Part shown: positions 25,060-40,310 of the stretch, in pieces
Numbering within the stretch: the stretch's first letter is position 1
How the letters are laid out: the number at the start of each line of letters is the position of its first letter
Assembly: GCA_027621915.1 (NCBI GenBank)
Contig: JAQCAD010000027.1
Coordinates: 1-42,396, forward strand
Source of the DNA: Pseudomonadota bacterium
GTDB taxonomy: Bacteria; Pseudomonadota; Gammaproteobacteria; Steroidobacterales; Woeseiaceae
DNA length: 42,396 nt
Direction: 5' to 3'
Translations under genes and position numbers: made by a program
Notes under the pieces: generated by a model
The model's database searches: none
Told to the model about the DNA's origin: nothing
The model's input: only the letters and a program-made list of their open reading frames with translations

Positions 25060-26043
25060 TCAGTTCAATACCTGGTGAACGTATTGGCGTACATTCTCAT
25101 GCCGGCCGTCCAGGAAGTTTCTGATATTGCGTGCTGATATGCCCCGACTTGCTGAAACTGACATGTCAGAGTTGAACGCAACATGCGGTGTCACAATCAC
25201 GTTAGATCGACCCATAAATCTGGAATTGTCAAGGTCTGGGGGTTCACCGCACAAAACGTCAAGGCCTGCTCCGGATATCTGGCCGCGATCAAGTGCGGCA
25301 ACCAGGGCGTCTTCGTCGATCAACTCGCCGCGAGCACAATTGATAAGAATTGGTTGCCGACTCATCTGCTCGAACGCATCGGCACCGATTAGGTTTCTGT
25401 TTTCCGGTGACATGCTGCAATTCAGGCTAATGACGTCGGAATTGGCAAGCAACGTCGGCAGGTCGCAGAACCGAACGCCTGCATCGTGGGTGGCGTTCGT
25501 TCCCACTTGATGATCGTGCGCCAGGATCGTCATGCCGAATCCCCTCGCTCGTTCCGCAACCGCGCGGCCGATTCGGCCGAAACCGACAATCCCCATCGTC
25601 ATGTCCCGTAGTCTGGAGAGCCCGGTCAATGATGCCGGCAGCCACAGTTTTTTCTCTTGTACTTGATAGTGATATTCGAGCAATCGTCGACACAATGTCA
25701 GCGTCATGAGCATGACATGATCGGCGACTTCGTCGGTACAGTATTCTTCGATAGCGCAGACGCTGATGTTCGCCTCCTTCGCCGCTTCCATATCAACGTT
25801 GCTATAGCCTGTACCCGCAATGGAAATAAGCTGACACCGATGTAACTCTGAAATTACACGACGTGTCAGCGGTGCCAGGTCTGTTAGAACGACATCGGCT
25901 GCGCGGCAGACGGAGATCAACAATTCCTCACTGTCCGCGCACAAAAGAGGTACAAGTTCCGTGTCAGCACCGAGAATCGCTTGCTCGACAGCCAGATCGG
26001 ACCACGCATGATCAGATACCTTTGCAATGACAATCCGAGTCAT
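25060..26043 (-). CDS. D-2-hydroxyacid dehydrogenase family protein
   Basis: The frame is open further upstream, but ATG 26043 gives a 327-residue protein of normal family length; no strong ribosome site was seen. The NAD-binding motif GFGRIG is at 154-159. The catalytic triad is Arg238 in NCARGEL, Glu267 in GEPPD and His287 in TPHVAF. The enzyme reduces 2-oxo acids to D-2-hydroxy acids, or the reverse, in the cytosol. It is first in a three-gene minus-strand operon with the aminotransferase and dppA. It diverges from the DSD1-type gene across a 431-bp region that contains a GntR-type operator. Confidence 0.88.
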   Translation of the reverse strand: MTRIVIAKVSDHAWSDLAVEQAILGADTELVPLLCADSEELLISVCRAADVVLTDLAPLTRRVISELHRCQLISIAGTGYSNVDMEAAKEANISVCAIEEYCTDEVADHVMLMTLTLCRRLLEYHYQVQEKKLWLPASLTGLSRLRDMTMGIVGFGRIGRAVAERARGFGMTILAHDHQVGTNATHDAGVRFCDLPTLLANSDVISLNCSMSPENRNLIGADAFEQMSRQPILINCARGELIDEDALVAALDRGQISGAGLDVLCGEPPDLDNSRFMGRSNVIVTPHVAFNSDMSVSASRGISARNIRNFLDGRHENVRQYVHQVLN

Positions 26044-26211
26044 TGTTGCATTTCTGATCGATGACAGGTGTGCAGTCGCGAGCGCGGAAATTCGTCGATG
26101 ACGACAAAGTCGGATTTCTCGCTGTCGCGGCGGATTGGAGTGTCCATATACGTCTAATCCTGACCAACTCGCTCTCAATGATTCTAGTTCGCCGATTGCC
26201 CGACGTGCTGC

Positions 26212-26256
26212 TTGACGGCAAATACCATGGCATGCAACATTGTATTCCAAATAACA
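26212..26256 (+). promoter_or_regulatory. Promoter-operator module, site 1 (divergent region, facing the DSD1-type gene)
   Basis: A -35 box TTGACG (26212-26217) is followed by 11 bases and then GGCATGCA (26229-26236) and AT.GTATTCCAAAT (to 26252). CAACAT lies 17 bases after the -35 box in the -10 position. The palindrome centre is at 26244/26245. Spacing is identical to two other sites in this window. It is the least symmetric of the three (TTG instead of TGG in the left arm). It points toward the gene at 26475. Confidence 0.7.
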
Positions 26257-26474
26257 AACACAAGAATTGCTCATCATAGCTGACAATTCATCCCTAAAGG
26301 GCAGGCTCGCAACGGTTTCCGGGGAGACGGTTCGGAAAATCGTAGCGCGACAACTTGCGTTCGACATAATTAAATTGGCACTGAGTTTCAGGACCTGGCA
26401 GTGCGAGGTGCGGTGTTCGAAATTGCCCGCCAATTAAATCTGGTCCGGTACATCGATTTCCAGGAAGCGAATAA
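26257..26474 (+). other. Long 5' leader between operator site 1 and the DSD1-type gene
   Basis: If transcription starts near the operator, the leader is about 220 bases. It contains a perfect 6-bp stem GCACTG (26378-26383)/CAGTGC (26399-26404) and an outer 7-bp pair AATTGGC (26373-26379)/GCCAATT (26429-26435), which cannot both form fully because they share two bases. An AGGAAG ribosome site precedes the ATG. I do not recognise a riboswitch family. The minus-strand operon must have its promoter in 26044-26474 too. Confidence 0.35.
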
Positions 26475-27587
26475 ATGATCAGCTACAAAGACTATTGCGT
26501 GGCCGATCCGGATGACCTGGAGACACCGGCGATGCTGCTTTTCCTGGATGTCATCGAACACAATGTTAGAAATGTCTGCGACCTCGTGGGTGGTGGACAA
26601 AATCTTTTCGTGCACGTAAAGACTCACAAGTCAGAGGCTGTAGCTCGAATACAGGTAAAACATGGTATCGACAGTTTCAAATGCGCGACGCTGAAGGAAA
26701 CGGAAATGGTCCTGAATGCAGGCGCACGCAGAGCCATTCTTGCGTATCCGCAGGTGCAACGAAAAAAGATTGAGCGACTATTCGATCTGGTTGCAGACTA
26801 CCCTGACGCCTGGATTGCCACGATTGTGAGCTCACCGTTACATCTTGAGCCGCTCGCAGATGCCGCCAGCCGACGCAAGCAATCGATGCGTGTAATGTTG
26901 GATCTTGATGCGGGCATGCACCGCACGGGTATCGGATTCGGCGCCGACGCGTCAACCTTGTACCGGAATATCACCGCGCATCCTTACCTGCTGGCATCCG
27001 GTCTGCACCTTTATGACGGGCATGATAACTACAGCGATCCGGTTGAACGTGAGGCTCATGCGACTAAGCACATCGCAGAGCTCCGGCAATTCGAGGAGCA
27101 GTTAAACGAGGCTGGAATGGAAGTTCCATGCGTGGTTGCCGGCGGCAGCTGGTCTTTTGCTTACTACGCCCGGACCGACGGCATGCAGGGATCACCGGGC
27201 ACGTTTATCTACTGGGACGCGGGCTACAGTGGCGACATGCCGGATATGCCGTTTCGCTGTGCAGCCATGGTCTTGACTCAGGTAGTAGATCGTTATCCCG
27301 ACGCAGGGACAATTACCACCGACCTGGGGTGTAAAGGGATCAGCTCGGATCTTCCCGAGCAGGAACGTGCTCACCTGCTCGGCTACGACACTGCAAGACT
27401 CATATTGCAAAGCGAAGAGCACGGTGTGTTCCGAATCGCGGGTGAATTGCCACATGTCGGCGACTATTTGCTGGCGATACCGGGTCATATCTGCCCGACA
27501 ACCATTCGTTACCCGGGGAGCCACGTTATCGACGCGACCGGGAAAGTAGTTGATTACTTTCTGCATACGGCGCGCGACCGGCAATGA
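26475..27587 (+). CDS. DSD1 / D-threonine-aldolase-type PLP enzyme (alanine racemase N-terminal fold)
   Basis: This 370-residue fold-type III PLP enzyme has an AGGAAG ribosome site. TPAMLLFLDVIEHNV (17-31) opens the barrel, and the PLP lysine is Lys49 in HVKTHK. GLHLYDGHDNY and the C-terminal metal pair His338/Cys340 in PGHICPT identify the branch that includes D-threonine aldolase, D-serine dehydratase and beta-hydroxyaspartate aldolase. All act on D- or 3-hydroxy amino acids with a divalent metal. I cannot separate these activities by eye. It is preceded by operator site 1 and followed by an amino-acid permease gene, which supports a catabolic role. Confidence 0.88.
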   Translation: MISYKDYCVADPDDLETPAMLLFLDVIEHNVRNVCDLVGGGQNLFVHVKTHKSEAVARIQVKHGIDSFKCATLKETEMVLNAGARRAILAYPQVQRKKIERLFDLVADYPDAWIATIVSSPLHLEPLADAASRRKQSMRVMLDLDAGMHRTGIGFGADASTLYRNITAHPYLLASGLHLYDGHDNYSDPVEREAHATKHIAELRQFEEQLNEAGMEVPCVVAGGSWSFAYYARTDGMQGSPGTFIYWDAGYSGDMPDMPFRCAAMVLTQVVDRYPDAGTITTDLGCKGISSDLPEQERAHLLGYDTARLILQSEEHGVFRIAGELPHVGDYLLAIPGHICPTTIRYPGSHVIDATGKVVDYFLHTARDRQ

Positions 27588-27640
27588 ACTGAGAGTCAGG
27601 CCGCAACAGCAAATGAATACGAAGTAACAAGGAATAAACA

Positions 27641-28951
27641 ATGGCCGGATCCGGCAGCGCGCAAGACGAAGGGCTGATACGCGTAATCGGCACCGGCGCC
27701 CTGAGTCTGAGCGTGGTCAACCTGGTCGTCGGCGCCGGTATTTTTGCGTTACCCGGTCTCGTCGCTGCCGGTCTCGGATCTGCAGCGATCCTGGCCTACC
27801 TTATTTGCTCGATTACTGTTGCGCTTGTCTTTATGTGCTTTGCCGAGGTGGGCAGTCGAGTCACGCGAACCGGGGGCGTCTATGCCTATGTAGAAGAGGC
27901 GTTCGGCAATTTCGTTGGATTCATCGCATCCATCCTGTTCTGGTTCGGCTTTTCTGCGCTGGCCGATGCTGCGATCACGGTTGTCATGGTCAATTCCATG
28001 GCTGTCGTTTTTCCCATATTCGGCGAAACCATTCCGCGGGTAATCTTCATCGCGACGCTGTTGTCGTTTCTGGCAGTAGTCAACATCCGTGGCGTCAGAG
28101 CAGGCGTGCGGCTTTACATTTTCAATACCCTGGTCAAACTGGTGCCGCTCCTGCTCCTGATCGGCGCCGGGTTACTCGTGATGGATTTCAACAATCTTGT
28201 TATTCGCGAATGGCCCTCGGCGACGAGCATTGGTGCAAGCACGGTATTGTTGTTCTATGCTTTCAACGGGGCAGAGTCCGCATTGAGCACCAGTGGCGAG
28301 ATAAAGAACCCGGCAAGGACTGTTCCACTTGGCCTCCTGTTCGGCCTTTGCGGTGTACTCTTGCTCTACGTCGGGCTGCAAACTGTGTCGCAAGGTGTGC
28401 TTGGACCGGAGCTCGCCAACAGCACCGAAACGCCGCTGGTCGCCGTCGCGACCGAAATATTTGGCGACTGGGGTGGCAAGATGCTGATTGCTGCCGCAGT
28501 CATTTCAATTTACAGCACCCTGAGCGGCGATATGCTGGCTGGACCCAGGGTGATTTTCGCATCTGCACTGGACAACAACCTGCCAAAGATTTTTGGCAAG
28601 GTACATACAGAATTCAAGACGCCGCATGTTGCGATTATTCTGTACGCGATTGTCGTTGGCGTGTTTGCCGTAAGTGGCACGTTCAAATACCTGGCAGTTG
28701 TCGCAACAGGTTCGTTGTTGCTGGTCGATCTCGGTGTGATTCTTGCCGTCCTTAGGTTACGCAGGCGCGACGGTTTGCCGGCCGAGGAAGAGTTCCGGCT
28801 CCCATTCGGGCCGCTAATACCGATATTGAGTTTCATTGTTGTCGGTTGGTTGCTGCTGCAGGTTCCTTCGGGCGAAGCGCTTAGCATCGCCATCTTGGTG
28901 GGTGTTTGCGCGGCCGGCTACGGCATTCGTTCAATCCTTGCGGCGAGGTGA
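27641..28951 (+). CDS. APC superfamily amino acid permease
   Basis: This 436-residue protein has an AAGGA ribosome site and 12 membrane helices. The first helix carries the APC substrate-binding signature VVGAGIFALPG (near 30-40), and helix 6 contains LLFYAFNGAESALSTSGEIK with the conserved NGAE unwound segment. APC carriers import amino acids with protons or by exchange. It lies 53 bp after the DSD1-type gene and is probably in the same transcript, so the likely cargo is the amino acid that enzyme uses. Confidence 0.9.
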   Translation: MAGSGSAQDEGLIRVIGTGALSLSVVNLVVGAGIFALPGLVAAGLGSAAILAYLICSITVALVFMCFAEVGSRVTRTGGVYAYVEEAFGNFVGFIASILFWFGFSALADAAITVVMVNSMAVVFPIFGETIPRVIFIATLLSFLAVVNIRGVRAGVRLYIFNTLVKLVPLLLLIGAGLLVMDFNNLVIREWPSATSIGASTVLLFYAFNGAESALSTSGEIKNPARTVPLGLLFGLCGVLLLYVGLQTVSQGVLGPELANSTETPLVAVATEIFGDWGGKMLIAAAVISIYSTLSGDMLAGPRVIFASALDNNLPKIFGKVHTEFKTPHVAIILYAIVVGVFAVSGTFKYLAVVATGSLLLVDLGVILAVLRLRRRDGLPAEEEFRLPFGPLIPILSFIVVGWLLLQVPSGEALSIAILVGVCAAGYGIRSILAAR

Positions 28952-28994
28952 CATCAGAGCAGTGGTCGCGTGCCGCACGGCGGGAGAGTCACAA

Positions 28995-31900
28995 ATGAAA
29001 GTCGAAGTTCGAATTATCCAGCTACTGCTGTTGATCGCGCTCACTGGTTGCGGTGCCGACGACAGCGACCGGTTCAGCGCTTCGAAGAGCGATGCGGTCA
29101 ATTATCCGAGCGTGGATGCGAACTTTCTTTCAGCAGTTGAATGGCGGTTCGTCGGGCCATACCGCGGTGGGCGGGTTCTCGCCGTAGCAGGACGTAGCGA
29201 CGATCCGCTGGTCTACTTTTTTGGAGCTGCTCATGGTGGCGTGTGGAAGACCGTTGACGCCGGTCAGCATTGGCGCAACGTCTCGGACGGATTCTTCAAT
29301 TTCCCTGCAATCGGCGCACTGGACGTGTCGCTTTCGGATCCCGGCGTAATCTACGCGGGGACGGGCGAGGGCCTCCAACGACAATATATCTCGCCGGGGG
29401 ATGGCGTCTACAAATCCTCCGATGGTGGTGAGACCTGGACTCACGTTGGTCTGCCAAAAACACGGCACATCTCGCGGCTTCGAGTACATCCGGGCAATCC
29501 CGATATCGTGTACGTGGCAGCAATGGGAGACATGTTTGGTCCCAATGCGGAGCGTGGTGTCTATCGAACCACCGATGGTGGAGAGACCTGGCAACAGGTT
29601 CTCTATAAAGGAGAGACAACGGGTTCGGTTGACCTGGATATCGATCGAAGGAATCCGGATGTGGTTGTTGCCGCAATGAATCACCACGTGACCTATCCAT
29701 GGGACGAAGAAAGTGGTGGATCAACAAGCGGCCTTTTCAAATCAGAGGACGGTGGCGACACCTGGGCCGATATCACTCGCAACCCTGGAATGCCTACGGG
29801 ACTGGTTGGAAAGATAGGGATTGCCATATCGCCGGCTGATTCGAACCGAATTTATGCATTCATCGAGTCAGACAAAGGAGAGGGTGGAATCTACCGTTCC
29901 GATGACGGAGGATCGTCATGGCAGATGACGCATCAGGATCTTTATGCGTTGGAGATTCCAAACTCCTACAATCACATCACCGCCGATCCGGTGGATCCGA
30001 ACATCGTCTATATCCAGCCTATCAGCGGTTTTCAGAAGTCGACTGATGCAGGCCGCACATTCGAACCCATGCACACGATGAACTGGGACCCGCATGCGTT
30101 GTGGATTCATCCCACGGATTCTCACCGAATGATAAATGGCGGGGACGGGGGTGCCGAAGTGTCATTGAACGGCGGCATCTCCTGGTCGACCCTTGAGAAC
30201 CAGCCTACCGCAGATCTACTGAGTCTGGCCGTTGACGACAGGGAGCCTTACTGGGTCTACTCGGCGCAAAACGATAACAGCCATATCGCGATACCTAGCC
30301 AAACTGATGACACCGCTATTGGCTGGATGCACTACCGCCCTTTGCCTGTCGGCGAGGCCGGCCACACGGCGGTACAGCCCGATGGTCGTATCGTATATGC
30401 CGCAGACCGGTCCAGGATGTTTCGGGTCGATCAGGAAACCGGCCAAGCGCCGGATATCAGTGTCTGGCCCGAGGTAGAGTTCGGGACTGCCGTCAAGGAC
30501 GTGCAGTATCGTTTCTATTACTCATACCCGGTTCATCTGTCCGCCCATGACAACGCGACGCTGTACAGCGCGGCACAGTACGTTTTCAAATCGACAGACG
30601 AAGGCAAAACCTGGACAAGAATCAGCCCCGATCTCACCCGTAACGTCCAGCAGGTCATGCAGGAAATATCCGGCGGGCCGGTCAGTTCCAATGCATCTTC
30701 GTTATTTCACGTGAGCGTGATCCGGACGCTTGTCGAATCGCCGCTGGTTGATGGAGAGCTATGGGTGGGTACCGACGACAGTACCATCCAATTTTCCCCT
30801 GATGACGGCGAAAGCTGGCACGACGTATCGCCGCCCACGCTTCCTGAGTGGACAACAATTACCGCTGTTGAAGTTTCGCCGCACCATCCGGGGACGGTCT
30901 ATGTCTCCGGTGAACGGCACAGGGTGAGCGATCGTTCGCCGTACCTCTACAAGACAACCGATTACGGTGAATCCTGGCAACAGATTACCAACGGCATTCA
31001 AGCAAATGACTACTCGTGGGTCGTGCGTGAAGATCCTGTTCGTCAAGGATTGCTTTACGCCGGCACAGAAACCGGCGTCTATGTTTCATTCGACGCGGGC
31101 GATTCCTGGCAGTCACTGCAGAATAACCTGCCACCGGTCATCGTCATGAATATGACGGTAAAAGACGACGATGTGGTGATTGCGACACATGGCCGGGGAA
31201 TCTGGATTATGGACGACATATCGTCGCTTCGGGAGATCACGCCGGAAGTTGTATCGGCGCCGGTACACCTGTTTGATGTTGCCCCTTCAATCCGCCGGCT
31301 GCGTGGGGGCAGAGGATGGACGAGGATAAATAGCCTTAATGTTGCCAAAAATCCGCCACGCGGTGTGGTGATTGAATACTTCCTTGCGCAGGCCGCGACT
31401 GACGAAGTAACGCTCACGATTCTGGACTCGGGTGGCGCTGCAATCCAACAATTCGACTTGCTGCAAGAGGATACGGACCGTCCTTCTGGCATGGCCGGTA
31501 TGAAGCGATTCGTTTGGGACATGCGATATCCGGATGTCGAATTGCCCGCATCCGCAGGGGCATTAACCGACTTTAAAAGTTCCGATCACTCGCCACCGTC
31601 CAGGCCGGTAGCGCCGCCAGGACAATATGCGGTGCGGCTGACCGTGGACGGCAATCGCGTTGAACGGCCATTCGAGATTCGGAAGGATCCGCGGATATCG
31701 GCGAGCAACGAGGACTTGCGAGCCCAGTTCGATCTGATGCTGGGCATTCAGTCTCAAGTCTCGGCGGTCGCGGATCAAGTGCTGAGACTCAGAGCGGTTC
31801 GGGACGAACTGAAAGAACGCCAGGCTGAGTTGCCAGAACAGTCGCAATCGGAAATTGCCGGAGTTCTGCAGCAACTCGATGATATCGAAGGCACACTCAC

Positions 31901-32123
31901 AATCTGGATGGGGTCGGAGGAACATCCCATGATGTTCGGCCCGCCGGGCCTGATCCAGAAATTGAGCCGGCTGTCTGGGGCAGTCATAGCGGGCGACGCC
32001 AGACCTACAGCGTCGATGGTTGGGGTTTTTGAAGATTTGTCGGAACGTTTCGACGATCGACGCCGGCAATTGAATCAGATTATTGATCAGGTATCTGTGC
32101 CGTCTCGGTCCACCGGGCAATGA
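28995..32123 (+). CDS. Large Asp-box (BNR/VPS10-like) beta-propeller lipoprotein
   Basis: An upstream extension of the open frame overlaps the permease gene in another frame. ATG 28995 is preferred because GGGAGAG precedes it and the first residues form a lipoprotein signal, LLLLIALTGC. The product is 1042 residues. I count eleven Asp-box-like units (SxDxGxTW), among them SSDGGETW, TTDGGETW, SEDGGDTW, SDDGGSSW, STDEGKTW, SPDDGESW and TTDYGESW, which imply one or two seven- to ten-bladed propellers over residues 50-780. A C-terminal part (about 800-1040) has a beta domain and a helical region. Such proteins are often labelled glycosyl hydrolase or sortilin-like, but no catalytic function is established. 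It probably sits in the envelope, and its gene lies beside a secreted peptidase gene. Confidence 0.8.
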   Translation: MKVEVRIIQLLLLIALTGCGADDSDRFSASKSDAVNYPSVDANFLSAVEWRFVGPYRGGRVLAVAGRSDDPLVYFFGAAHGGVWKTVDAGQHWRNVSDGFFNFPAIGALDVSLSDPGVIYAGTGEGLQRQYISPGDGVYKSSDGGETWTHVGLPKTRHISRLRVHPGNPDIVYVAAMGDMFGPNAERGVYRTTDGGETWQQVLYKGETTGSVDLDIDRRNPDVVVAAMNHHVTYPWDEESGGSTSGLFKSEDGGDTWADITRNPGMPTGLVGKIGIAISPADSNRIYAFIESDKGEGGIYRSDDGGSSWQMTHQDLYALEIPNSYNHITADPVDPNIVYIQPISGFQKSTDAGRTFEPMHTMNWDPHALWIHPTDSHRMINGGDGGAEVSLNGGISWSTLENQPTADLLSLAVDDREPYWVYSAQNDNSHIAIPSQTDDTAIGWMHYRPLPVGEAGHTAVQPDGRIVYAADRSRMFRVDQETGQAPDISVWPEVEFGTAVKDVQYRFYYSYPVHLSAHDNATLYSAAQYVFKSTDEGKTWTRISPDLTRNVQQVMQEISGGPVSSNASSLFHVSVIRTLVESPLVDGELWVGTDDSTIQFSPDDGESWHDVSPPTLPEWTTITAVEVSPHHPGTVYVSGERHRVSDRSPYLYKTTDYGESWQQITNGIQANDYSWVVREDPVRQGLLYAGTETGVYVSFDAGDSWQSLQNNLPPVIVMNMTVKDDDVVIATHGRGIWIMDDISSLREITPEVVSAPVHLFDVAPSIRRLRGGRGWTRINSLNVAKNPPRGVVIEYFLAQAATDEVTLTILDSGGAAIQQFDLLQEDTDRPSGMAGMKRFVWDMRYPDVELPASAGALTDFKSSDHSPPSRPVAPPGQYAVRLTVDGNRVERPFEIRKDPRISASNEDLRAQFDLMLGIQSQVSAVADQVLRLRAVRDELKERQAELPEQSQSEIAGVLQQLDDIEGTLTIWMGSEEHPMMFGPPGLIQKLSRLSGAVIAGDARPTASMVGVFEDLSERFDDRRRQLNQIIDQVSVPSRSTGQ

Positions 32124-32135
32124 AGGTAGGCAACA

Positions 32136-32267
32136 ATGAAAGCCATCAGCTCATCAGCATTCGCCGCCACGAATTGGACACCGGTTTTCAGCTGCCAGGA
32201 TAGTTATTCCATTGGATGCCAGGGCGTCGATCCGAGCGATCCATTACTAACACAGGAAATGAAATGA
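32136..32267 (+). CDS. Possible 43-residue peptide translationally coupled to the S9 peptidase
   Basis: ATG 32136 is preceded by AGGTAGG five bases upstream. The 43-codon frame ends in a TGA that overlaps the peptidase ATG (ATGA at 32264-32267). The peptide reads MKAISSSAFAATNWT, continues through a Cys pair (FSCQDS, IGCQG) and ends LLTQEMK. I do not recognise it. The ribosome site and the four-base overlap with the next gene favour real translation. Its short length and lack of a known family leave it uncertain. Confidence 0.35.
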   Translation: MKAISSSAFAATNWTPVFSCQDSYSIGCQGVDPSDPLLTQEMK

Positions 32268-34279
32268 ACAGGTACCTGCTAATCGCAATTGCATTATTTC
32301 TTGTTGCCGCGACCAGTCCTGCGATCGCGAAAGATGCGGAGAACCAACGACCTATCCAGATCGTGGACTATTTCAATATTGATTCGGTTGGCAGTCCGCG
32401 GGTCAGTCCCGATGGAGCGTGGGTCGCCTATACCGTGGGTTCTCAGGATCTCCAAAAAGACACCCGTGAATCCCGGGTCTGGATGATTGCGCAGTCGGGT
32501 GGCGATCCTCTCCCAATGACGGCAAAAGGATCCTCTGCGTGGAGTTCCGGCTGGAGTCCGGACGGCAAGCGCTTGTCATTCCTCGCCATGAGTGAGGATA
32601 GCGAAAGTTCACAGGTCTTCACGCTGAATGTGCGCGGTGGCGAGCGAGTGCAGTTGACCGATGTTGATGGCGGGGTTGAGGGCTACGAATGGTCACCCGA
32701 CGGGAAGCGACTGGTACTGGTTATCCGTGATCAGGAAGCGGACAAAGGGCCCGGACCCTGGGTCATCGATCGTTTGAAATTCAAGGACGATTATGTCGGT
32801 TATTTGAATCGGCTACGCGCTCACCTGTTTGTTTTTGATGTGGACAAGAAGACGCTGGTGCAGATTACAGCAGGCGACTACGAAGATTATTCGCCGGCCT
32901 GGTCTCCAGATGGAAGCAAGATCGCCTTTGTCAGCAATCGCACTGCCGAGCCGGACGCCAGTTCCAATTCCGACATCTGGTTGGTGGATCCGGGTACTCC
33001 TTACGAGCAACAGGAACCAGTCCGGGTAACCACGAACCCCGGCTCCGACGGTTCGCCGATCTGGCACCCCGATGGCAAGAGAATCGGCTACATCATGACG
33101 GCCACGGACCGGACCGACGTACCCGATTCCTACCTGCAGTCGAAAGTTGCGATCATCCGTCCCGGCGACGATGAACCCGTGCTGCTGACGACAGAAGCAC
33201 TCGACCGCAAGGCCTACGACCCGCAATTCTCTCCCGACGGAAGTCACATCTACGTCATGCTCGAGGATGACGGCCAGGTCCAGCTGGCCAGCGTGTCGGT
33301 CAACGATGGCACGTTGAGCCGGGTTGTTACGGGGCAGGTCCGGGTGGAAGCGATCGCCGTTGCGCCGGATGGCAGTGTCGTCCTCGCCATCAGCAAGCCG
33401 CGCCTGCCTGGAGAATTGTTCGTGCTTGACCCACCAGCATCCGGCGCTTCTCGCGAGCTGCGCCGCCTCACTCACGTCAATGATGAGTTGCTGAGTTCGA
33501 TCTTTCTGTCAGACGTTGAGGAGCTGCGTTTTCCCACGCTCGACGGCACCGAGATCCAGACTTTCGTCTACAAACCGGACTCCTTCAATCCGGATCATCA
33601 GTACCCGGCCATTCTCTGGCTCCACGGCGGGCAGGAATCCCAGTACGACTATGGTTTCAATTTCCGGGTCCAGTTGTTTGCGGCCAACGGCTATGTTGTG
33701 GTGATGCCGAATGTTCGCGGTTCTGGTGGCCGGGGGCTCGACTTCGCACTCTCCCTTAACAAGGCTTATGGAACGCACGATGTCGAAGATGTGATCGTGG
33801 CGACTGACTACCTCATCGAACAGGGGTATGTCGATCCCGACCGGCTCGGCGTCGGCGGCTGGTCGTCTGGCGGGACGCTTACGAATGTAGTGATTGCCAA
33901 GACGGATCGATTTGCCGGCGCCATCAGTGGCGCCAGCGTCGGCTGGTATACGTCCACCTACGGTCACGACCCCTACGTGCTGTGGTGGCATACGGAACTC
34001 GGCTCGCCATGGGAGAACCGCGATCTCTGGGATTCAATCTCGCCGTTCATGCTGGTGGAAAACATCACGACGCCGACGCTGTTCATCGGCGGGGAGAAGG
34101 ACTGGAATCAGCCGATTATCCACTCCGAGCAGATGTACCAGGCGATGAAGTACCTCGGCCGCGAGGTGTCGCTGGTTGTTTATCCCGATGCGCACCACGG
34201 CATCAGACGGCCTGTTTATCAGCAAGATCTGCTCGAGCGATTTATCGACTGGTTCGACAAGTACGTTAAGCGAGACTAG
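32264..34279 (+). CDS. S9 family peptidase (prolyl oligopeptidase/acylaminoacyl peptidase type), secreted
   Basis: ATG 32264 follows an AGGAAA ribosome site and starts a Sec signal peptide (IAIALFLVAATSPAIA), giving 671 residues. The N-terminal half has PD40-type propeller repeats (SPDGAWVAYTVG, WSPDGKRLSFLA, WSPDGKRLVLV, WSPDGSKIAFVS, WHPDGKRIGYI). The C-terminal hydrolase domain holds Ser534 in GWSSGG, Asp613 in GGEKDWNQP and His645 in DAHHGI. These enzymes cleave short peptides after proline or release acylated N-terminal residues. It should act in the periplasm and supply amino acids to the permeases encoded nearby. The next gene begins only three bases after its stop. Confidence 0.93.
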   Translation: MNRYLLIAIALFLVAATSPAIAKDAENQRPIQIVDYFNIDSVGSPRVSPDGAWVAYTVGSQDLQKDTRESRVWMIAQSGGDPLPMTAKGSSAWSSGWSPDGKRLSFLAMSEDSESSQVFTLNVRGGERVQLTDVDGGVEGYEWSPDGKRLVLVIRDQEADKGPGPWVIDRLKFKDDYVGYLNRLRAHLFVFDVDKKTLVQITAGDYEDYSPAWSPDGSKIAFVSNRTAEPDASSNSDIWLVDPGTPYEQQEPVRVTTNPGSDGSPIWHPDGKRIGYIMTATDRTDVPDSYLQSKVAIIRPGDDEPVLLTTEALDRKAYDPQFSPDGSHIYVMLEDDGQVQLASVSVNDGTLSRVVTGQVRVEAIAVAPDGSVVLAISKPRLPGELFVLDPPASGASRELRRLTHVNDELLSSIFLSDVEELRFPTLDGTEIQTFVYKPDSFNPDHQYPAILWLHGGQESQYDYGFNFRVQLFAANGYVVVMPNVRGSGGRGLDFALSLNKAYGTHDVEDVIVATDYLIEQGYVDPDRLGVGGWSSGGTLTNVVIAKTDRFAGAISGASVGWYTSTYGHDPYVLWWHTELGSPWENRDLWDSISPFMLVENITTPTLFIGGEKDWNQPIIHSEQMYQAMKYLGREVSLVVYPDAHHGIRRPVYQQDLLERFIDWFDKYVKRD

Positions 34280-34282
34280 TTG

Positions 34283-35692
34283 ATGACAAAGCGAAAATTC
34301 AGAGTTCCACATACGCTTGTCATCCTCTTTTCGATGGTGGTGCTAGCGCAGTTGCTGACCTACGTCATTCCGGCCGGATCCTTTGAGCGGACAGAGATCG
34401 AGTCAGGTCGCATGCAAGTCGTTCCCGGCAGCTTCCACATCACCCCGGACGCCCCTGCGGTTTCGCCGTTTGCAGCGCTGACGGCGATTCCAAAAGGATT
34501 CAGCAGTGCGCACGAGATTATTTTTTTCGTCTTTATTATCGGCGGCCTGTTTGCCGTACTGCGGGCGACAGGTACTCTTGATGCCGGCATGGCCGCGCTT
34601 CTGCGGCGCTGGCGCAAACGACCATTCTTGTTGATCGCCGGCAGCATGACGCTGTTTGCATTTGGGTCCAGCACCGTGGGATTCGGAGAGGAGTACTATC
34701 CCTTCGTGCCGGTCCTCGTCAGTTTGTGCCTGGCGCTTGGTTACGACCGTATGACGGCCATCGGCATCATCATGGTCGGCTATGGCACCGGTTACGGACC
34801 CGCAATTATCAACCCGTTCACGACACTTATTGCACAGGACATTGCAGGACTGGAGCCTGCGTCCGGTCTCTGGTACCGGCTGATTTGCTTTTTCATATTT
34901 GTCGGCATCGGCATCCACCACGTCTGGTCCTACGCCAAGCGCGTCGGCAATGATCCTTCCAAAAGCCTCGTGGCCGACATCGACGTGCCGGCCGGTGCGG
35001 CGATACCGAGGGATCAAAGTCCGGCGGCCCTCGATGACCTGCCGCCGATGACGAAAGTTCAAAAGCTGATCATGACCGCGATCGTCGTCGCCATGGTCAT
35101 GCTGATCTACGGTATGACGGTCTGGAAATGGGGTCTGTTCGAGATGCAGGGCCTGTTCGCCGGCCTGACACTAATCATCGCCGTCATTGCCCGAATGAGC
35201 CCGGACGAAACGGCAACTGAGTTCAGTATCGGCGCAGGCAGTCTTACGAGTGTTGCCCTGTTGATCGGTGTAGCCCGGGCGATCCAGGTGGTTCTGGATG
35301 AGGGCGGCATCGTGGACACAATGGTCTACGGTATCAGCGTTCCCGTCCAGGAGTTGCCCGGGGCCATCGCCGCGATTGGAATGTTCTTCGTTCAAAGTCT
35401 CGCCAACTTTTTTATTCCTTCAGGTAGTGGGCAGGCTTACGTCACGATGCCGATTATGGCGCCACTGGCGGACCTCGTCGGAGTGAGCCGACAGGTCGCC
35501 GTGCTGGCATTTCAATTCGGTGACGGCTTCAGCAACATTCTGATCCCAACACAGTACGTATTGATTGGCATACTGGGGATGGCTGGCATTCCTTATGATC
35601 GCTGGTTGATATTCGTTATGCCCCTCATGATCAAGATTGCTATCGTCGGATCGCTTGCGTTGGTGGTGGCCGTACTGATCGGTTACGAGTAG
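34283..35692 (+). CDS. YfcC/DcuC-type ion-coupled carrier (C4-dicarboxylate or amino-acid transporter)
   Basis: From ATG 34283 (an in-frame TTG sits directly before it) the protein has 469 residues and about 12 hydrophobic segments. The motifs VIPAGSFER near the N-terminus, GFGEEYYPFVPVLVSLCLALG, GYGTGYGPAIINPFTT and FFIPSGSGQAYVTMPIMAPL are typical of the YfcC/DcuC group. Family members carry C4-dicarboxylates, citrulline/ornithine or other amino acids. The gene is almost contiguous with the S9 peptidase gene, so the carrier probably takes up its products or a related keto- or dicarboxylic acid. It seems to end the plus-strand transcript that begins at 26475. Confidence 0.85.
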   Translation: MTKRKFRVPHTLVILFSMVVLAQLLTYVIPAGSFERTEIESGRMQVVPGSFHITPDAPAVSPFAALTAIPKGFSSAHEIIFFVFIIGGLFAVLRATGTLDAGMAALLRRWRKRPFLLIAGSMTLFAFGSSTVGFGEEYYPFVPVLVSLCLALGYDRMTAIGIIMVGYGTGYGPAIINPFTTLIAQDIAGLEPASGLWYRLICFFIFVGIGIHHVWSYAKRVGNDPSKSLVADIDVPAGAAIPRDQSPAALDDLPPMTKVQKLIMTAIVVAMVMLIYGMTVWKWGLFEMQGLFAGLTLIIAVIARMSPDETATEFSIGAGSLTSVALLIGVARAIQVVLDEGGIVDTMVYGISVPVQELPGAIAAIGMFFVQSLANFFIPSGSGQAYVTMPIMAPLADLVGVSRQVAVLAFQFGDGFSNILIPTQYVLIGILGMAGIPYDRWLIFVMPLMIKIAIVGSLALVVAVLIGYE

Positions 35693-35709
35693 GTTGTGAC
35701 TCGACGACA

Positions 35710-35727
35710 ATTGTCTTCAACGACAAT
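35710..35727 (+). terminator. Weak hairpin after the transporter gene
   Basis: ATTGTC, loop TTCAAC, GACAAT form a 6-bp hairpin 17 bases after the transporter stop, followed by GTTCTTGG, which is only partly T-rich. It may end the 26475-35692 transcript ahead of the gntR promoter. The stem is AT-balanced and short, so this is tentative. Confidence 0.3.
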
Positions 35728-35765
35728 GTTCTTGGCGTGTGCAGATCACCGTGCGGGCTCAAAAC

Positions 35766-35810
35766 TTGACAGAAAAAAATACGGCATGCAAGATGGTATT
35801 CCAAATGGCA
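35766..35810 (+). promoter_or_regulatory. Promoter-operator module, site 2 (gntR promoter)
   Basis: A consensus -35 TTGACA (35766-35771), 11 bases, GGCATGCA (35783-35790), then ATGGTATTCCAAAT (35793-35806). CAAGAT occupies the -10 position 17 bases after -35. The operator is a 24-bp palindrome centred at 35798/35799: TGC (35787-35789) pairs with GCA (35808-35810) and TGG.AT.CCA forms the core. Its overlap with the -10 region implies repression of the adjacent gntR gene by its own product. Confidence 0.75.
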
Positions 35811-35822
35811 TTGGCATATGGC

Positions 35823-35827
35823 GGAGG
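35823..35827 (+). promoter_or_regulatory. Ribosome binding site fixing the gntR start
   Basis: GGAGG stands five bases before ATG 35833. The upstream in-frame ATG 35818 has no such site and lies directly against the operator, so 35833 is the better start. Confidence 0.7.
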
Positions 35828-35832
35828 CCATT

Positions 35833-36546
35833 ATGGCGGTCGAAAAACAGGAACCATTGATTGATAGCGTCTATGCCCGCCTCCGGGGCCTAATTCTTTC
35901 CAGTGTTTTGCGACCCGGTCAAAAGCTCGTGGACAGGGATTTGTCCGAACAGCTCGGTGTCAGCAGAACGCCGGTTCGTGAAGCGCTGGGCCGACTGGCG
36001 ATGATGGGTCTGGTTGAGGCTCGCAGTGGCCGCGGCTATTACGTCCGCCAATATTCGGCCGATGAGGTCTCCGATCTGTACGAATTTCGAAAGATCCTGG
36101 AAGTCAACGCCGCAATGCGTGCCGCCGAAAATCTGCGTCCGGAGCATGTCCGTGAATTCGACCGTATCCTGCGCGATATGGAGAAGATGGACTCAAGTAC
36201 GTCGAGCCGCGCACGGTCCGTCGAACTCGATCTCGAGATCCACCTCCTGATTGCAAAAGCCAGTGGCAATATCGAGTTGTACAAAGCGATCAAGAACCTG
36301 ATGGACAAGATCATGTGTTTTATCTGGGTGGACTGGCTGGATCCATCGAGTGCCAATCCGGAAACAGTGGCGGCAGCAAATCGCGAACACGAGGAGTTAA
36401 TCGTCAGTATCAAGAACCGGGATGCTGACAAGGCGGCAGCACAACTGGGCGCACACATCGATCATGCACGAAACGTTATGACCAAATTGCTCAGAGCACG
36501 GGAGGAGTATCGTGATGCCGTGCTGGCGGGTGCGGCGTCCCGATAA
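35833..36546 (+). CDS. GntR family transcriptional regulator, FCD (FadR-like) subfamily
   Basis: This 237-residue protein has an N-terminal winged helix (LIDSVYARLRGLILSSVLRP, then DLSEQLGVSRTPVREALGRL and LVEARSGRGYYVR) and a C-terminal all-helical FCD domain. The FCD metal site is visible as Asp/His in ELDLEIHLLIAKASGN, His in REHEELI and His in LGAHIDHARN. FCD regulators bind carboxylic or amino acids and usually repress catabolic genes. They recognise short palindromes such as TGGTAT-ACCA-like sites, and a matching palindrome lies in this gene's own promoter and upstream of two further genes here. It is followed by an SDR, an OCD homologue and a dehydratase remnant on the same strand. Confidence 0.92.
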   Translation: MAVEKQEPLIDSVYARLRGLILSSVLRPGQKLVDRDLSEQLGVSRTPVREALGRLAMMGLVEARSGRGYYVRQYSADEVSDLYEFRKILEVNAAMRAAENLRPEHVREFDRILRDMEKMDSSTSSRARSVELDLEIHLLIAKASGNIELYKAIKNLMDKIMCFIWVDWLDPSSANPETVAAANREHEELIVSIKNRDADKAAAQLGAHIDHARNVMTKLLRAREEYRDAVLAGAASR

Positions 36547-36606
36547 GAACACATAAAGCGAAACTGCACGCTGGCAACATGAACGAAGACAGCACTGGAG
36601 AACAAA

Positions 36607-37362
36607 TTGTATTTTACGGGTAAACGCGTCCTGGTGACGGGCGCCAGTCGCGGCATTGGTTTTGAAATCGCCAGGAACTTTATTCAAGCGGGCGCCCAAG
36701 TCGCGGTAAATGGCAGCAATGAAAAATCCGTCGACGCGGCGATTAAAGAACTTAACAAGGCAAAGCAAACTGTCGCAGCGCCTGGCAACATTGGCACGGT
36801 CGCTGGTTGCGAATCGACGGTAAGAAAGGCAATCGAGGCATTTGGCGGGCTCGATATTCTGGTGAACAACGCTGGTGTCGGTGCCGGCCGGCCGATTGCC
36901 GATTGCGATGAAGCAATGTGGGATGCGCATTGTGACGTCAATTTAAAAGGCCTTTTCTTCTGTTGCCGCGCAGCAATTCCTGAATTACGCAAATCTGGCG
37001 GTAACATTGTCAACATCGCATCGGATGCCGGATTGATGGGCGTGCCGGGCATTACTGTTTATTGCGGCACCAAGGGCGGCGTCGTCAATATGTCGCGGGC
37101 CATGGCTTTGGAAATTGCGCCCGACGTACGCGTGAATTGCGTGTGCCCCGGATATGTCGATACCGACATGATTCGCACCACTACAAAAAAGAAGCCGGAT
37201 CCCGAGGCGTACTGGCAAAAAATGATCGACTACGCGCCCCTGAAACGAATCGCCTCCACGGATGAGATTGCATACGCCGTCATGTATCTGGCATCTGACA
37301 ATGCCCGCTTTATCACCGGGACATCACTGGCAATCGACGGCGGCACGACAGCAGGCAAATAG
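36607..37362 (+). CDS. SDR family NAD(P)-dependent oxidoreductase
   Basis: This 251-residue protein starts at a TTG with GGAG six bases before it; the protein begins directly with the cofactor fold, so a downstream start would remove it. TGASRGIG (11-18) is the dinucleotide motif, NNAG lies near 87-90, and the active site shows Ser in NIASDAG and the Tyr-Lys pair in VYCGTKGG. Classical SDRs of this size oxidise or reduce a hydroxyl/keto group, for example 3-hydroxy acids or 3-oxoacyl groups. It lies between gntR (60 bp) and the OCD homologue (14 bp), so it likely works on an intermediate of the amino-acid pathway. Confidence 0.9.
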   Translation: MYFTGKRVLVTGASRGIGFEIARNFIQAGAQVAVNGSNEKSVDAAIKELNKAKQTVAAPGNIGTVAGCESTVRKAIEAFGGLDILVNNAGVGAGRPIADCDEAMWDAHCDVNLKGLFFCCRAAIPELRKSGGNIVNIASDAGLMGVPGITVYCGTKGGVVNMSRAMALEIAPDVRVNCVCPGYVDTDMIRTTTKKKPDPEAYWQKMIDYAPLKRIASTDEIAYAVMYLASDNARFITGTSLAIDGGTTAGK

Positions 37363-37376
37363 CGAGAGGAAAAATA

Positions 37377-38336
37377 ATGCCAAAAGTACTCAAGCTTGAC
37401 GAAATAAAAAATCAGATAAATGTTCCCGAGATGATCCAGGCCATCGAAGATGGTTTTGTTCTCTATTCCGAAGACAGGGTAGTTGTTCCACCAGTGGGGT
37501 TCCTGAATTTCAAGGATCCACCAGGCGACGTTCATATCAAGTATGGCTACGTCAAAGGCGACGACGTTTATGTACTGAAAGTCGCTTCCGGTTTTTACGA
37601 CAATGGGAAGATTGGCGTGCCGTTTGCAGACGGTGTGATCCTGGTATTCAGTCAGAAAACGGGACACCTTCAAGTGGTTCTTCACGATGAATGCTGGCTG
37701 ACCGATATGCGAACGGCGGCAGCTGGCGCCGTCGCCGCGAAACATCTTGCGCCAGACAACGTCAATTGCATCGGGATCATTGGCACGGGAGGGCAAGCCA
37801 GGATGCAGCTTGAATTGCTGAAAGACATCGTCGATTGCCAGCAGTGCGTTGTCTGGGGCAGGGATGCTGCGAAAGTCGACAAGCTGGTCTCTGATCTCAG
37901 GGCGAACCCAACCATTCAGAATTGGGGGTTGCAGATAGCAGCTGCGGGATCGGTTGAGGAGCTCGCGTCGAAAAGCAATCTGATTGTGACGACAACATCA
38001 GCACGGGAAGCGCTTGTGCTTGCCGACCATGTTCAAGCGGGTACCCACATCACAGCCATGGGATCGGACGATCATGGCAAGCAAGAGCTTGAGGCTGCGT
38101 TACTCGGGAAGGCCGACGTCGTCGTAGCCGACAGCATTTTGCAATGTGTCGATCACGGTGAGTGCTTTCATGCCGTGAAAAACGGTTCGATTTCCGAAGA
38201 CGCTATTGTGGAGCTCGGCAACGTCATCAAGAACCCCAGGCTCGGTCGAACAAATGACAGACAAATTACGGTGGCGGACCTCACGGGTATTGCTATCCAG
38301 GATATCCAGATCGCAAAGATGGCGAGCAGAGCGTAA
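37377..38336 (+). CDS. Ornithine cyclodeaminase / mu-crystallin family protein
   Basis: This 319-residue protein has an AGAGGAAA ribosome site. Lys55 in HIKYGY and Arg112 in LTDMRTAAAGAVAAKHLA match the family's substrate-binding Lys and Arg. The Rossmann motif is GIIGTGGQARMQ (133-144). Asp231/232 in GSDDHGKQEL is the catalytic acid region, and VADLTGIAIQD closes the fold. Family members include ornithine cyclodeaminase, imine and pyrroline-carboxylate reductases, the iminosuccinate reductase of the beta-hydroxyaspartate cycle (BhcD) and the ectoine-utilisation protein EutC. Adjacency to a threonine-dehydratase-like remnant and a DSD1-type gene in the window favours an imine-reducing role, but this is inference. 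Confidence 0.9.
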   Translation: MPKVLKLDEIKNQINVPEMIQAIEDGFVLYSEDRVVVPPVGFLNFKDPPGDVHIKYGYVKGDDVYVLKVASGFYDNGKIGVPFADGVILVFSQKTGHLQVVLHDECWLTDMRTAAAGAVAAKHLAPDNVNCIGIIGTGGQARMQLELLKDIVDCQQCVVWGRDAAKVDKLVSDLRANPTIQNWGLQIAAAGSVEELASKSNLIVTTTSAREALVLADHVQAGTHITAMGSDDHGKQELEAALLGKADVVVADSILQCVDHGECFHAVKNGSISEDAIVELGNVIKNPRLGRTNDRQITVADLTGIAIQDIQIAKMASRA

Positions 38337-38351
38337 ATCACGGGGAAATGA

Positions 38352-39108
38352 GTGTCAGCGGAAAAAACATTGGCAATTGACGTACCTAAACTCGTACTGG
38401 AGGCGCACGAGCGAACCAAAGACTATCTTGACCCCGACGCCGCTCGAGTTCTCGCGCCACCTGAGCGACCTCATCGAGGGTGAGGTCTGGTTAAAACTGG
38501 ACCTGGTTACTCACGGGGATCTTGCCTGGGACGCCGAGGTCGAAGCGCGTCGCGTCGGAGACGAGGAAGGCAAAGTCTATGTTTCGCCATACAACGATCC
38601 GAATGTCGTTGGTGGGCAAGGTACCTGCGGGTACGAGATTTCCGAGCAGCTTCCTGACGTGGACGCGGCGTTTTTCGCCTGTGGGGCAGGTGGTCTCTTG
38701 ACGGGGTCATCAGGCTGGCTGAAACACCACAGCCCGAGCATTGAGATCTACGGCGTCTCGCCGGCGAATTCGCCAGTAATGTATGAGTCAGTTAAGGCTG
38801 GCAAGATGATCTCGATGGACACTAAGCCGACGCTGGCAGATACATGCGGCGGTGGCGTCGACCTCGACAGCATTACGCTGGAGCTGTGCCGCCGCCACGT
38901 TGATGAAATCCTGTTGCTTTCGGAAAAAGAGATTGCCGCAGCAATTCGCCTGCTGTTCTATGAGCACCGACTTGGTGCGGAAGGTTCCGGTGTGCTGGGC
39001 ATTGGCGGCGTTTTGCAGCGGAAAGATAAATTCAAAGGTAAGAAGGTGGTTGCGGTCATTTGCGGCCGGAACGTCGATCTGGCGGTTTTCAAAAAGATCA
39101 TTGCGTAG
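38352..39108 (+). pseudogene. Broken threonine/hydroxyaspartate dehydratase-like gene (frameshift plus internal deletion)
   Basis: A GTG at 38352 with GGGGA upstream opens a frame reading SAEKTLAIDVPKLVLEAHER and TKDYL, then derails near 38430. One base over, the frame continues TPTPLEFSRHLSDLIEGEVW and LKLD, as expected for a fold-type II PLP dehydratase, so one extra base (around G38430) is the simplest cause. A second lesion follows. LVTH is joined directly to GDLAWDAEVEARR (about 38509-38518), skipping roughly 75-90 residues that should include the PLP lysine (SFK) and the SSGNHG loop. The rest is intact: VYVSPYNDPNVVGGQGT, ACGAGGLLTG and AEGSGVLGIG. The product cannot bind PLP normally. 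Confidence 0.85.
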
Positions 39109-39119
39109 GTCGCCGGTTT

Positions 39120-39140
39120 GGCATGGTGCCTGACACTTTT
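39120..39140. repeat. Possible REP/RAYT-associated repeat fragment
   Basis: GGCATGGTGCCTGACACTTTT resembles a GTGCCTGACAC motif that I recall as dispersed in proteobacterial genomes near REP-associated (Y1) transposases. It contains a 4-bp stem GGCA/TGCC. Only one copy was seen in this window, between the dehydratase remnant and the convergent gene. Confidence 0.3.
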
Positions 39141-39150
39141 CAGATTTACC

Positions 39151-39960
39151 TTAGAATCCGGTCATTGAAGTCGGACGCGCCCTCAATAACTTGAAACGAT
39201 GAAAGCCGAGGTTGATGTAAGGCTCGAGCGGAAAGTCGACCATACCCAGCAGGTCACGATCTTTGATCGGTTGAGAACATTGAAATTCTCCGCCTCGGCC
39301 TTTGTTCAATTTCGAGATAGACGGATAACATATTCTCGACGGGCAGGTTAGCGCACATCCAGCGTTCGCAAACAAAGTAATCTTGTTCTTGTTCTTTATC
39401 TCGGCGAGAAATTCCAGGTCTTCGTTCACCGGCATCGGTAACACGACCGAGTCGTACAACTCCATAGCCGCGTCGATCTTTTTGTGGGACTTGATATTCT
39501 TGATGACACTGCCGTCAATTCGGTAGTCAGGAAAGTCCTCACGTATCCAGCGGGCGAGATCGTCATTAGTGCATATGATTGAATTCCCCGCGACGTGATA
39601 CTTGCGAAGCAACCATTGGTTAAGCTTATATTCTTTACGTTCGACGACGTGATTCGACATCGGAATACGGATCCCGATTCCCGCGCCATTGAGCTGCTCC
39701 ACATCCTTGTCCGACAGCTCGCGTCTGACGAACTGTCGGCCCCCATAAAGTGTGCTTTTCTCGACAAACCCGAACAGGCTGTCAACTTCGTTGATTCGCA
39801 GATTGCCGTAGTTTTCCCGAAGGTACGCAAACACCGGATAATCGGGCGGTTTACCGCGTGCGGAAACGGTGAATGTCGCGATGGGCAGTGCGACCGGCTC
39901 CGCTTTGGTAAAAATGCGGTCGGCCCCGAAGTCAGTCAATTCGCCGTGTGTTTTGTCCAC
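39151..39960 (-). CDS. U32-peptidase-like TIM-barrel protein with cysteine cluster
   Basis: This 269-residue soluble protein has no signal peptide. The central part (LARWIREDFPDYRIDGSVIK, then YDSVVLPMPVNEDLEFL) and the segment ANAGCALTCPSRICY with a later FQCSQP resemble the U32-like barrel proteins with the pattern NEGCxxxCPxR. In the UbiU/UbiV and RlhA group such cysteines bind an iron-sulfur cluster. Four candidate ligands are visible (AGC, LTC, RIC, FQC). It is shorter than full U32 peptidases and ends with YINLGFHRFKLLRA, which suits a barrel strand/helix end. It is convergent with the dehydratase remnant, and its function is unknown. Confidence 0.5.
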   Translation of the reverse strand: MDKTHGELTDFGADRIFTKAEPVALPIATFTVSARGKPPDYPVFAYLRENYGNLRINEVDSLFGFVEKSTLYGGRQFVRRELSDKDVEQLNGAGIGIRIPMSNHVVERKEYKLNQWLLRKYHVAGNSIICTNDDLARWIREDFPDYRIDGSVIKNIKSHKKIDAAMELYDSVVLPMPVNEDLEFLAEIKNKNKITLFANAGCALTCPSRICYPSISKLNKGRGGEFQCSQPIKDRDLLGMVDFPLEPYINLGFHRFKLLRARPTSMTGF

Positions 39961-40265
39961 TTCTCTTTAATTTCAGCAGGTTAGGAGATTTCTGGGGCCG
40001 CTGCCAGTATCCGATCCGCGAGTCCTCATGTCGATCTACGGCCATGACGGAAACTCAACATGCCATGGTCATTGCGCTCTGCAATATCCGTATTTGTCAC
40101 AAAACGGATCCGATCTCCTGCGGCAGATCTGCTGAAGAAAATAGAGGAACTCAAGGTCAATTAATGGTTGCGATCGTTTGAGGCCGGAATGTCGACTGGC
40201 AGCATTCGAATAGCCATTCAGTCAGGCCCCATGCGTTGATTTCACTGGACTGGCCCGCCATGAGC
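39961..40265. other. Intergenic stretch upstream of the TonB receptor promoter
   Basis: About 305 bases between the minus-strand U32-like gene start and promoter-operator site 3. It should hold the promoter of the U32-like gene. A 34-codon frame (ATG 40060 to TAA 40164) ends DLLKKIEELKVN but has no recognised family and no clear ribosome site. Nothing else is apparent. Confidence 0.4.
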
Positions 40266-40310
40266 TTGACAACGTTTTTCGCGGCATGCAGTATGGTATT
40301 CCAAATCGCA
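40266..40310 (+). promoter_or_regulatory. Promoter-operator module, site 3 (TonB receptor promoter)
   Basis: A consensus -35 TTGACA (40266-40271), 11 bases, GGCATGCA (40283-40290), then ATGGTATTCCAAAT (40293-40306). CAGTAT lies 17 bases after -35. The palindrome is centred at 40298/40299, with TGC (40287-40289) opposite GCA (40308-40310). Layout is identical to site 2, although the 11-base spacers share no sequence. It lies about 100 bases before the receptor ATG. Confidence 0.75.

Follow-up and report, generated by a model that had tools for sequence, protein, structure and literature searches.

Among described GntR-family regulators with an FCD domain, Atu1419 of Agrobacterium fabrum (VanR group, PDB 6za3) represses its own gene and two others through a 10-bp palindrome and a degenerate one, and six effector-domain helices rather than seven are the VanR-group criterion in the accessible sections of PMC7797058. 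DgoR of E. coli is an FCD GntR repressor whose inverted repeats overlap the promoter and whose effector pocket holds a divalent metal (PMC7674646, available text). For operators of the FadR subfamily, excerpts of PMC4494728 give TKGT/ACMA boxes and weaker additional half-sites 7-12 nt from the centre. Here we describe a locus on a 42,396-nt contig (JAQCAD010000027.1) of a Woeseiaceae bacterium, the whole of which is called the window below. Three promoter-operator modules of one layout stand before a D-amino-acid-enzyme gene, a gntR gene and a TonB-dependent receptor gene. Very probably these form a local, autoregulated GntR regulon, in which a predicted FCD/VanR-type repressor would act on the -10/+1 region of its own gene and of uptake and catabolism genes.

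Three modules in one 14-kb stretch

The pattern TTGACR-N11-GGCATGCA-NN-AT(K)GTATTCCAAAT occurs three times in the window, letter for letter and on the forward strand, at 26212-26252, 35766-35806 and 40266-40306, exactly where a sequence-only reading of this DNA had placed three modules of identical layout; it was found in 0 of 100 shuffles. Allowing up to three mismatches gave no window occurrence beyond the three. The window is contig C23 of a draft genome of 3,564,879 bases in 101 contigs (95% complete), and in this whole draft the 24-base core with up to three mismatches was found only at the three window places (reversed-pattern control, 0). A looser genome scan returned eight further places (reversed control, five), with best nearby scores of 4.6-19.2 bits against 25.5-32.4 bits for the three sites; at one of the eight the best-scoring position is not the pattern match, and the scores alone were used. 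The location of these eight places in open frames does not discriminate, since stop-to-stop frames of at least 150 amino acids also run across sites 1 and 2. Strong sites are confined to one 14-kb stretch; a random spread or a tie to a different regulator would have spoken against the sequence-only interpretation, which survived this genome scan. A chance origin is ruled out by the shuffles and the genome-wide scan, and a global regulon by the presence of only three sites in the genome. An Rfam scan of the window gave no matches.

Each module consists of TTGAC(A/G), 17 nt and CAnnAT, and a 24-bp imperfect palindrome begins two bases before the CAnnAT. At site 1 the -35 hexamer is TTGACG (26212-26217, +) and the predicted -10 hexamer CAACAT (26235-26240, +), lying after a 17-nt spacer within operator 1, TGCAACATTGTATTCCAAATAACA (26233-26256); the counterpart in genome G058 was found through a 158-nt alignment of the promoter regions (71% DNA identity, E 3e-16). 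Site 2 has TTGACA (35766-35771, +), the predicted -10 hexamer CAAGAT (35789-35794, +) and operator 2, TGCAAGATGGTATTCCAAATGGCA (35787-35810), with counterparts before gntR in G054 and G059. Site 3 has TTGACA (40266-40271, +), the predicted -10 hexamer CAGTAT (40289-40294, +) and operator 3, TGCAGTATGGTATTCCAAATCGCA (40287-40310), with counterparts before the TonB receptor gene in G027 and G056.

The sites were scored with two weight matrices. The first, built from five other genomes only, is the leave-out test: it gave the window sites 21-30 bits and the next window match 9.3 bits, the best of 60 random first-order (Markov) windows reaching 18.6 bits. The second, symmetric matrix was built from the same eight sites that it scored and gave 25.5, 32.4 and 30.8 bits for sites 1, 2 and 3, with 9.4 bits at the next window position and 17.6 bits as the best of 60 random first-order windows. 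Two core matches with three mismatches, in genomes G025 and G077, scored below 10 bits with the matrix and were set aside.

Between the three modules the boxes are 88-92% identical, the 11-base spacer 9-55% and the 60 bases on either side 27-35%. The spacers had been called unrelated, which describes pairs with identity down to 9% and not sites 1 and 2, which share 55%.

Operator and promoter geometry

The 24-bp operator consensus is TGCAnnATGGnA|TTCCAAATnGCA. The palindrome is imperfect, with 6, 8 and 8 of 12 pairs matched in sites 1, 2 and 3. The outer TGC/GCA boxes that the sequence-only reading gave to all three are intact in sites 2 and 3; in site 1 the right-hand box is ACA, and TTG replaces TGG. 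Promoter-coupled sites in five other genomes carry CTTGACA at -35. Across the eight coupled sites the left half is (C/G)AnnATGG, with TTG instead of TGG in site 1, and it fits the FadR-type TKGT box in six; the right half reads CCAAAT, again in six. The outer boxes lie 10-12 nt from the centre.

The base preceding T(G/T)G is A in all eight promoter-coupled sites. It is the symmetric T in both operators that lack -35/-10 coupling, a comparison set of two sites only: one beside a D-2-hydroxyacid dehydrogenase gene in G059, where it sits between the dehydrogenase homologue and a divergent alpha/beta-hydrolase gene, and one beside an aminotransferase gene in G060. We read this as the palindrome giving way exactly where a sigma-70 -10 hexamer needs its A, the fifth base. 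The broken symmetry supports the overlap of palindrome and -10 region that had been claimed.

On this reading the three modules would be sigma-70 promoters whose -10 hexamer and start region are overlaid by a 24-bp operator, which the FCD (VanR-group) GntR protein encoded downstream of the middle module would recognise. The effector-free dimer would cover about -14 to +10 and occlude the -10, and because of this coverage repression by occlusion is the simplest mechanism. The targets shut off would be the gntR operon (negative autoregulation), an operon of D-amino-acid enzyme, permease and peptidase genes, and the TonB receptor gene. Release of the operators would come from an effector that binds the predicted FCD metal site (His142, His191 and His213 with Asp138) and is probably a carboxylate, for instance an intermediate of amino-acid or hydroxy-acid type; outer-membrane uptake, peptide hydrolysis, inner-membrane transport and amino-acid breakdown would be induced together. 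The weakest step of this scheme is that operator 1 may also govern the divergent operon of D-2-hydroxyacid dehydrogenase, aminotransferase and D-aminopeptidase genes. At site 1 the TTG in place of TGG creates TACAAT on the opposite strand, which, speculatively, could be a -10 hexamer toward that operon.

Promoters with a perfect -35 and a weak -10 could instead require GntR as an activator, in the manner of the FCD-family activator CitO (PMC4746285, available sections). The window -10 hexamers match TATAAT at only three of six positions, and a generic sigma-70 promoter scan called none of the three promoters because of these weak hexamers, which leaves some room for activation. The operator spans about -14 to +10, a position at which a bound dimer is expected to obstruct the polymerase, and activators usually bind further upstream. 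With FCD repressors known in DgoR (PMC7674646) and Atu1419 (PMC7797058), as the portions at hand describe them, activation appears unlikely.

The GntR regulator

The repressor favoured above would be the product of gntR (35818-36546, +; Pfam, orthologue alignment and model), for which the alignment of orthologues suggests a start at 35833. It has an N-terminal GntR winged helix (PF00392, 70.9 bits against a cut-off of 27) and a C-terminal FCD domain (PF07729, 86.3 bits against 24.3). An AlphaFold model from an alignment of 26 sequences (mean confidence score, pLDDT, 87.8) shows six effector-domain helices at residues 81-105, 108-122, 128-148, 152-172, 181-199 and 203-241. The top PDB fold matches are PmiR, a Brucella GntR protein, TM0439, McbR and VanR/Atu1419. 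The FCD triad His142, His191 and His213, positions read from the alignment, is kept in all five orthologues. By these features the regulator is an FCD/VanR-group GntR protein with a predicted metal site.

In the numbering of PMC4494728, as its available text gives it, helix-turn-helix (HTH) position 0 is Ser-7 of FadR, and hence positions 28, 39 and 40 are FadR residues 35, 46 and 47. The winged HTH is 89-93% identical to that of four orthologues (G056: over 31 residues only), versus 60-87% for the FCD domain. Judged from a by-eye alignment to E. coli FadR, we take positions 28, 39 and 40 to be Arg40, Thr51 and Pro52 here. Arg at position 28 is compatible with G/C in the box.

Among the 30 window proteins scanned with Pfam, a selection of the open reading frames (ORFs), GntR is the sole transcription factor. 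A class-wide search of 369 genomes at E<=1e-30 found the regulator in the window's own genome only, and a single search of genome contigs returned three close relatives and one 27%-identical protein.

Co-occurrence of operator and regulator

In an order-level comparison of 396 genomes, a GntR orthologue (E<=1e-40) is present in five: G000 (the window's genome), G027, G054, G056 and G059. The promoter-coupled pattern TTGAC-N17-GCAnnATKGnATTCCAAAT, with up to two mismatches, is present in six, namely all five orthologue genomes and G058 (reversed control, 0/396; Fisher p 8e-11, relatedness ignored). With the spacer one base shorter the pattern was found in one genome, not among the six. This co-occurrence supports the local GntR regulon that the sequence-only reading had proposed.

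A site precedes gntR in G000, G054 and G059, all three genomes in which the gntR promoter is visible. Sites precede the TonB receptor gene in G000, G027 and G056 (in the last, the contig ends after roughly the first 70 codons) and the D-amino-acid-enzyme operon in G000 and G058. Six ungapped pairs of matched promoters are 86-100% identical in the -35 box and 77-90% in the operator, versus 17-38% upstream of the -35, 18-82% in the spacer and 30-75% downstream, where the gntR pairs extend into coding sequence. Visible promoters of orthologous TonB receptor genes carry the operator in three of three genomes with the GntR orthologue and in none of three without it (G005, G029, G035). Nor was an operator found at the homologous D-amino-acid enzyme gene of G029; these three genomes are all drafts with the orthologue undetected.

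Three side observations concern these genes. On C56 of the window's genome a second receptor copy is truncated by the contig start, its promoter out of view. The G035 receptor promoter (L090:1313-1370) has CTTGACA and both outer TGCA boxes in register with a different centre, possibly a decayed or re-targeted operator; a regulator swap in G035 was considered and dropped, as near its nearest GntR gene only one 9-base match to the receptor promoter was found. In G059 (L043:2-1228) the gntR frame continues with no stop codon into a stretch resembling, by eye, a short-chain dehydrogenase, possibly a fusion or a sequencing error.

The boxes might be the operator of another regulator, a GntR paralogue or an unlinked factor, the adjacent gntR being merely one of its targets. 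G058 and G060 carry the operator with the orthologue undetected, and the window's genome has four further GntR-domain matches (PF00392, one below the cut-off); the same scan gave other GntR proteins in G058 (five matches) and in G060 (three). The operons of both genomes run off contig ends (contig C80 of G058 begins inside the S9 peptidase gene and C24 of G060 ends inside the permease gene), so gntR, which in the window is the second gene behind the S9 peptidase gene, may have been lost with a piece of contig, and its absence may be an assembly gap. Another regulator would have to follow the GntR orthologue into five of five genomes while its pattern occurs in only 1 of the 391 others, and to have its operator before gntR itself at all three visible promoters, in a window with GntR as the sole transcription factor among the proteins scanned. 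We regard this explanation as quite improbable.

Besides the undetected orthologues and the other GntR proteins, several observations weigh against a regulon read by this GntR protein. The right box is TCCA in all eight promoter-coupled sites, where the FadR-type rule expects ACMA. Pro at HTH position 40 is reported to avoid G/C at the box position (PMC4494728, excerpts), and wing residue 71 is Gly here and Arg in four orthologues. G059 has a different TonB receptor gene beside gntR, with no operator before it. The relatives are known from incomplete genomes, those counted as orthologue-free being drafts too (G029 85% complete, G005 and G035 90%), and all genomes involved belong to one family and are not independent draws.

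The identical layout at three places and the 55% identical spacers of sites 1 and 2 might suggest that a promoter cassette or small repeat moved recently and left three copies without common regulation. This is hardly tenable, because identity outside the boxes is 27-35%, every site is matched in other species by a counterpart of its own in front of the corresponding gene, and there are no further genomic copies; recent duplication, which the sequence-only reading had also denied, is thereby ruled out.

Proposed target genes and their neighbourhood

Domain scans bear out the three proposed targets, a DSD1-type enzyme gene, gntR and a TonB receptor gene. Operon membership was inferred from strand and spacing. 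Behind site 1 on the + strand lie genes for a fold-III pyridoxal-phosphate (PLP) enzyme of the DSD1/D-threonine-aldolase type (26475-27587), an APC-family amino-acid permease (27641-28951), a VPS10/sortilin-type BNR beta-propeller protein (28995-32123, scanned as 28836-32120), an S9 prolyl-oligopeptidase-family peptidase (32216-34279) and a DcuC-family transporter (34280-35692), which is YfcC-like with a score below that model's cut-off. gntR is followed on the same strand by genes for a short-chain dehydrogenase (36607-37362) and an OCD (ornithine cyclodeaminase)/mu-crystallin-family protein (37377-38336), PRK06823-like and again below the model's cut-off. The TonB-dependent receptor gene (40406-42396, +) runs off the contig end. 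Divergent from site 1, on the - strand, are genes for a D-2-hydroxyacid dehydrogenase (25060-26043, scanned as 25063-26133), a class I/II aminotransferase (23869-25047), beside whose G060 homologue an operator lies, and an M55 D-aminopeptidase (22928-23782).

The PLP enzyme has Ala_racemase_N (PF01168, 84.9 bits) and D-ser_dehydrat (PF14031, 48.3 bits) domains and a His-x-Cys metal pair. Its PGHICPT motif aligns to PNHACAT of 3wqc and to PSHVDPT/PGHCDPT of four aldolases. Overall it is nearest to D-threonine/D-3-hydroxyaspartate aldolases, from whose His-x-Asp metal pair it departs by Cys in place of Asp. According to the available parts of PMC4401734, the His/Cys pair occurs in a dehydratase and in a predicted aldolase/racemase, and His/Asp in AxDTA. 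A D-serine/D-3-hydroxyaspartate-type dehydratase is favoured only moderately, because the His-x-Cys pair is not exclusive to dehydratases.

Two genes of the locus appear decayed. A remnant of an OCD/mu-crystallin-family gene, N- and C-terminal pieces only (26303-26460, +; found by tblastn with the G058 protein as query, E 9e-5 and 0.002), lies in the 228-nt leader of the D-amino-acid enzyme gene; an intact OCD-family gene occupies the same place in G058 (L044:7137-8114). The second is a serine/threonine-dehydratase-like PALP gene (38352-39108, +; sequence comparison) broken in two ways: the frame changes close to the 5' end, and about 70 residues are missing, in frame, from the interior. G056 has an intact relative (L046:373-1347), and in G027 (L047) no PALP ORF of at least 180 amino acids was found between the OCD gene and the minus-strand gene. 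An assembly error may lie behind either the OCD remnant or the PALP break.

Elsewhere in the window, a 269-aa protein without a Pfam match is encoded at 39151-39960 (-), and a close look-alike, judged by eye, lies beside the TonB receptor gene of G027 (L047:1924-2733). The segment 15372-21865 carries two sets of GMC oxidoreductase, gluconate-2-dehydrogenase subunit 3 and 3-keto-disaccharide-hydrolase-domain genes on opposite strands and is, judged from these predicted genes, a separate sugar-oxidation locus.

Possible role and comparison with known systems

Taken together, the predicted genes suggest peptides containing D- or hydroxy-amino acids as putative substrates. Tentatively, and with more doubt than confidence, we suggest that this is a Woeseiaceae circuit sensing peptides with D- or beta-hydroxy-amino acids, in which the regulator would unite the TonB receptor, peptidases, D-aminopeptidase, transporters and PLP/OCD enzymes. 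If so, the unit would serve the refractory D-amino-acid pool of marine sediment, and a -10-centred operator would switch all promoters with one geometry. Bacteria of the order Woeseiales are abundant on the seafloor and are believed to feed on detrital protein (PMC7082342, accessible text). For this order the regulon is a proposed link between outer-membrane uptake and the catabolism of unusual amino acids, and knowing the regulator's effector would give a clue to the cargo of the TonB receptor.

Among the known systems, Atu1419 resembles the present regulator in its FCD GntR architecture, its six-helix effector domain and its fold. It differs in serving hydroxycinnamate degradation, in its tetramer with DNA looping and in its effector, methylenetetrahydrofolate, and the identity is about 25% (PMC7797058, excerpts). 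DgoR, which the present regulator would match in operator placement and metal pocket, serves the D-galactonate operon and has the metal residues Asp146/His150/His195 (PMC7674646, available text). The His triad 134/174/196 of TM0439, as given in excerpts of PMC4746285, corresponds to His142/191/213 here. TM0439 (3fms/3sxy; 29-30% identity) and PmiR (7xp0; 26-28% identity) are the solved structures nearest in sequence, and both rank among the closest folds. Their targets are, we assume, other or unknown genes.

In enzyme content the locus was compared with the beta-hydroxyaspartate cycle cluster (bhcABCD with BhcR). Of the NCBIfam models, BhcC matched the PLP enzyme best, and the weaker matches of the OCD and PALP proteins include BhcD and BhcB, respectively; all scored below the equivalog cut-offs (BhcB 125.8 of 550 bits for the broken PALP protein, BhcC 116.9 of 690, BhcD 183.3 of 500). 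The regulators differ, FCD-GntR here and BhcR, presumably an IclR-type protein, in the bhc cluster. No paper describing a GntR regulon of such gene content was found in the open-licence literature that was searched. The regulon, apparently a new one, is well supported by this comparison of sequences, and its mechanism would be the standard one of a local autoregulated GntR regulon, an ordinary type of bacterial circuit.

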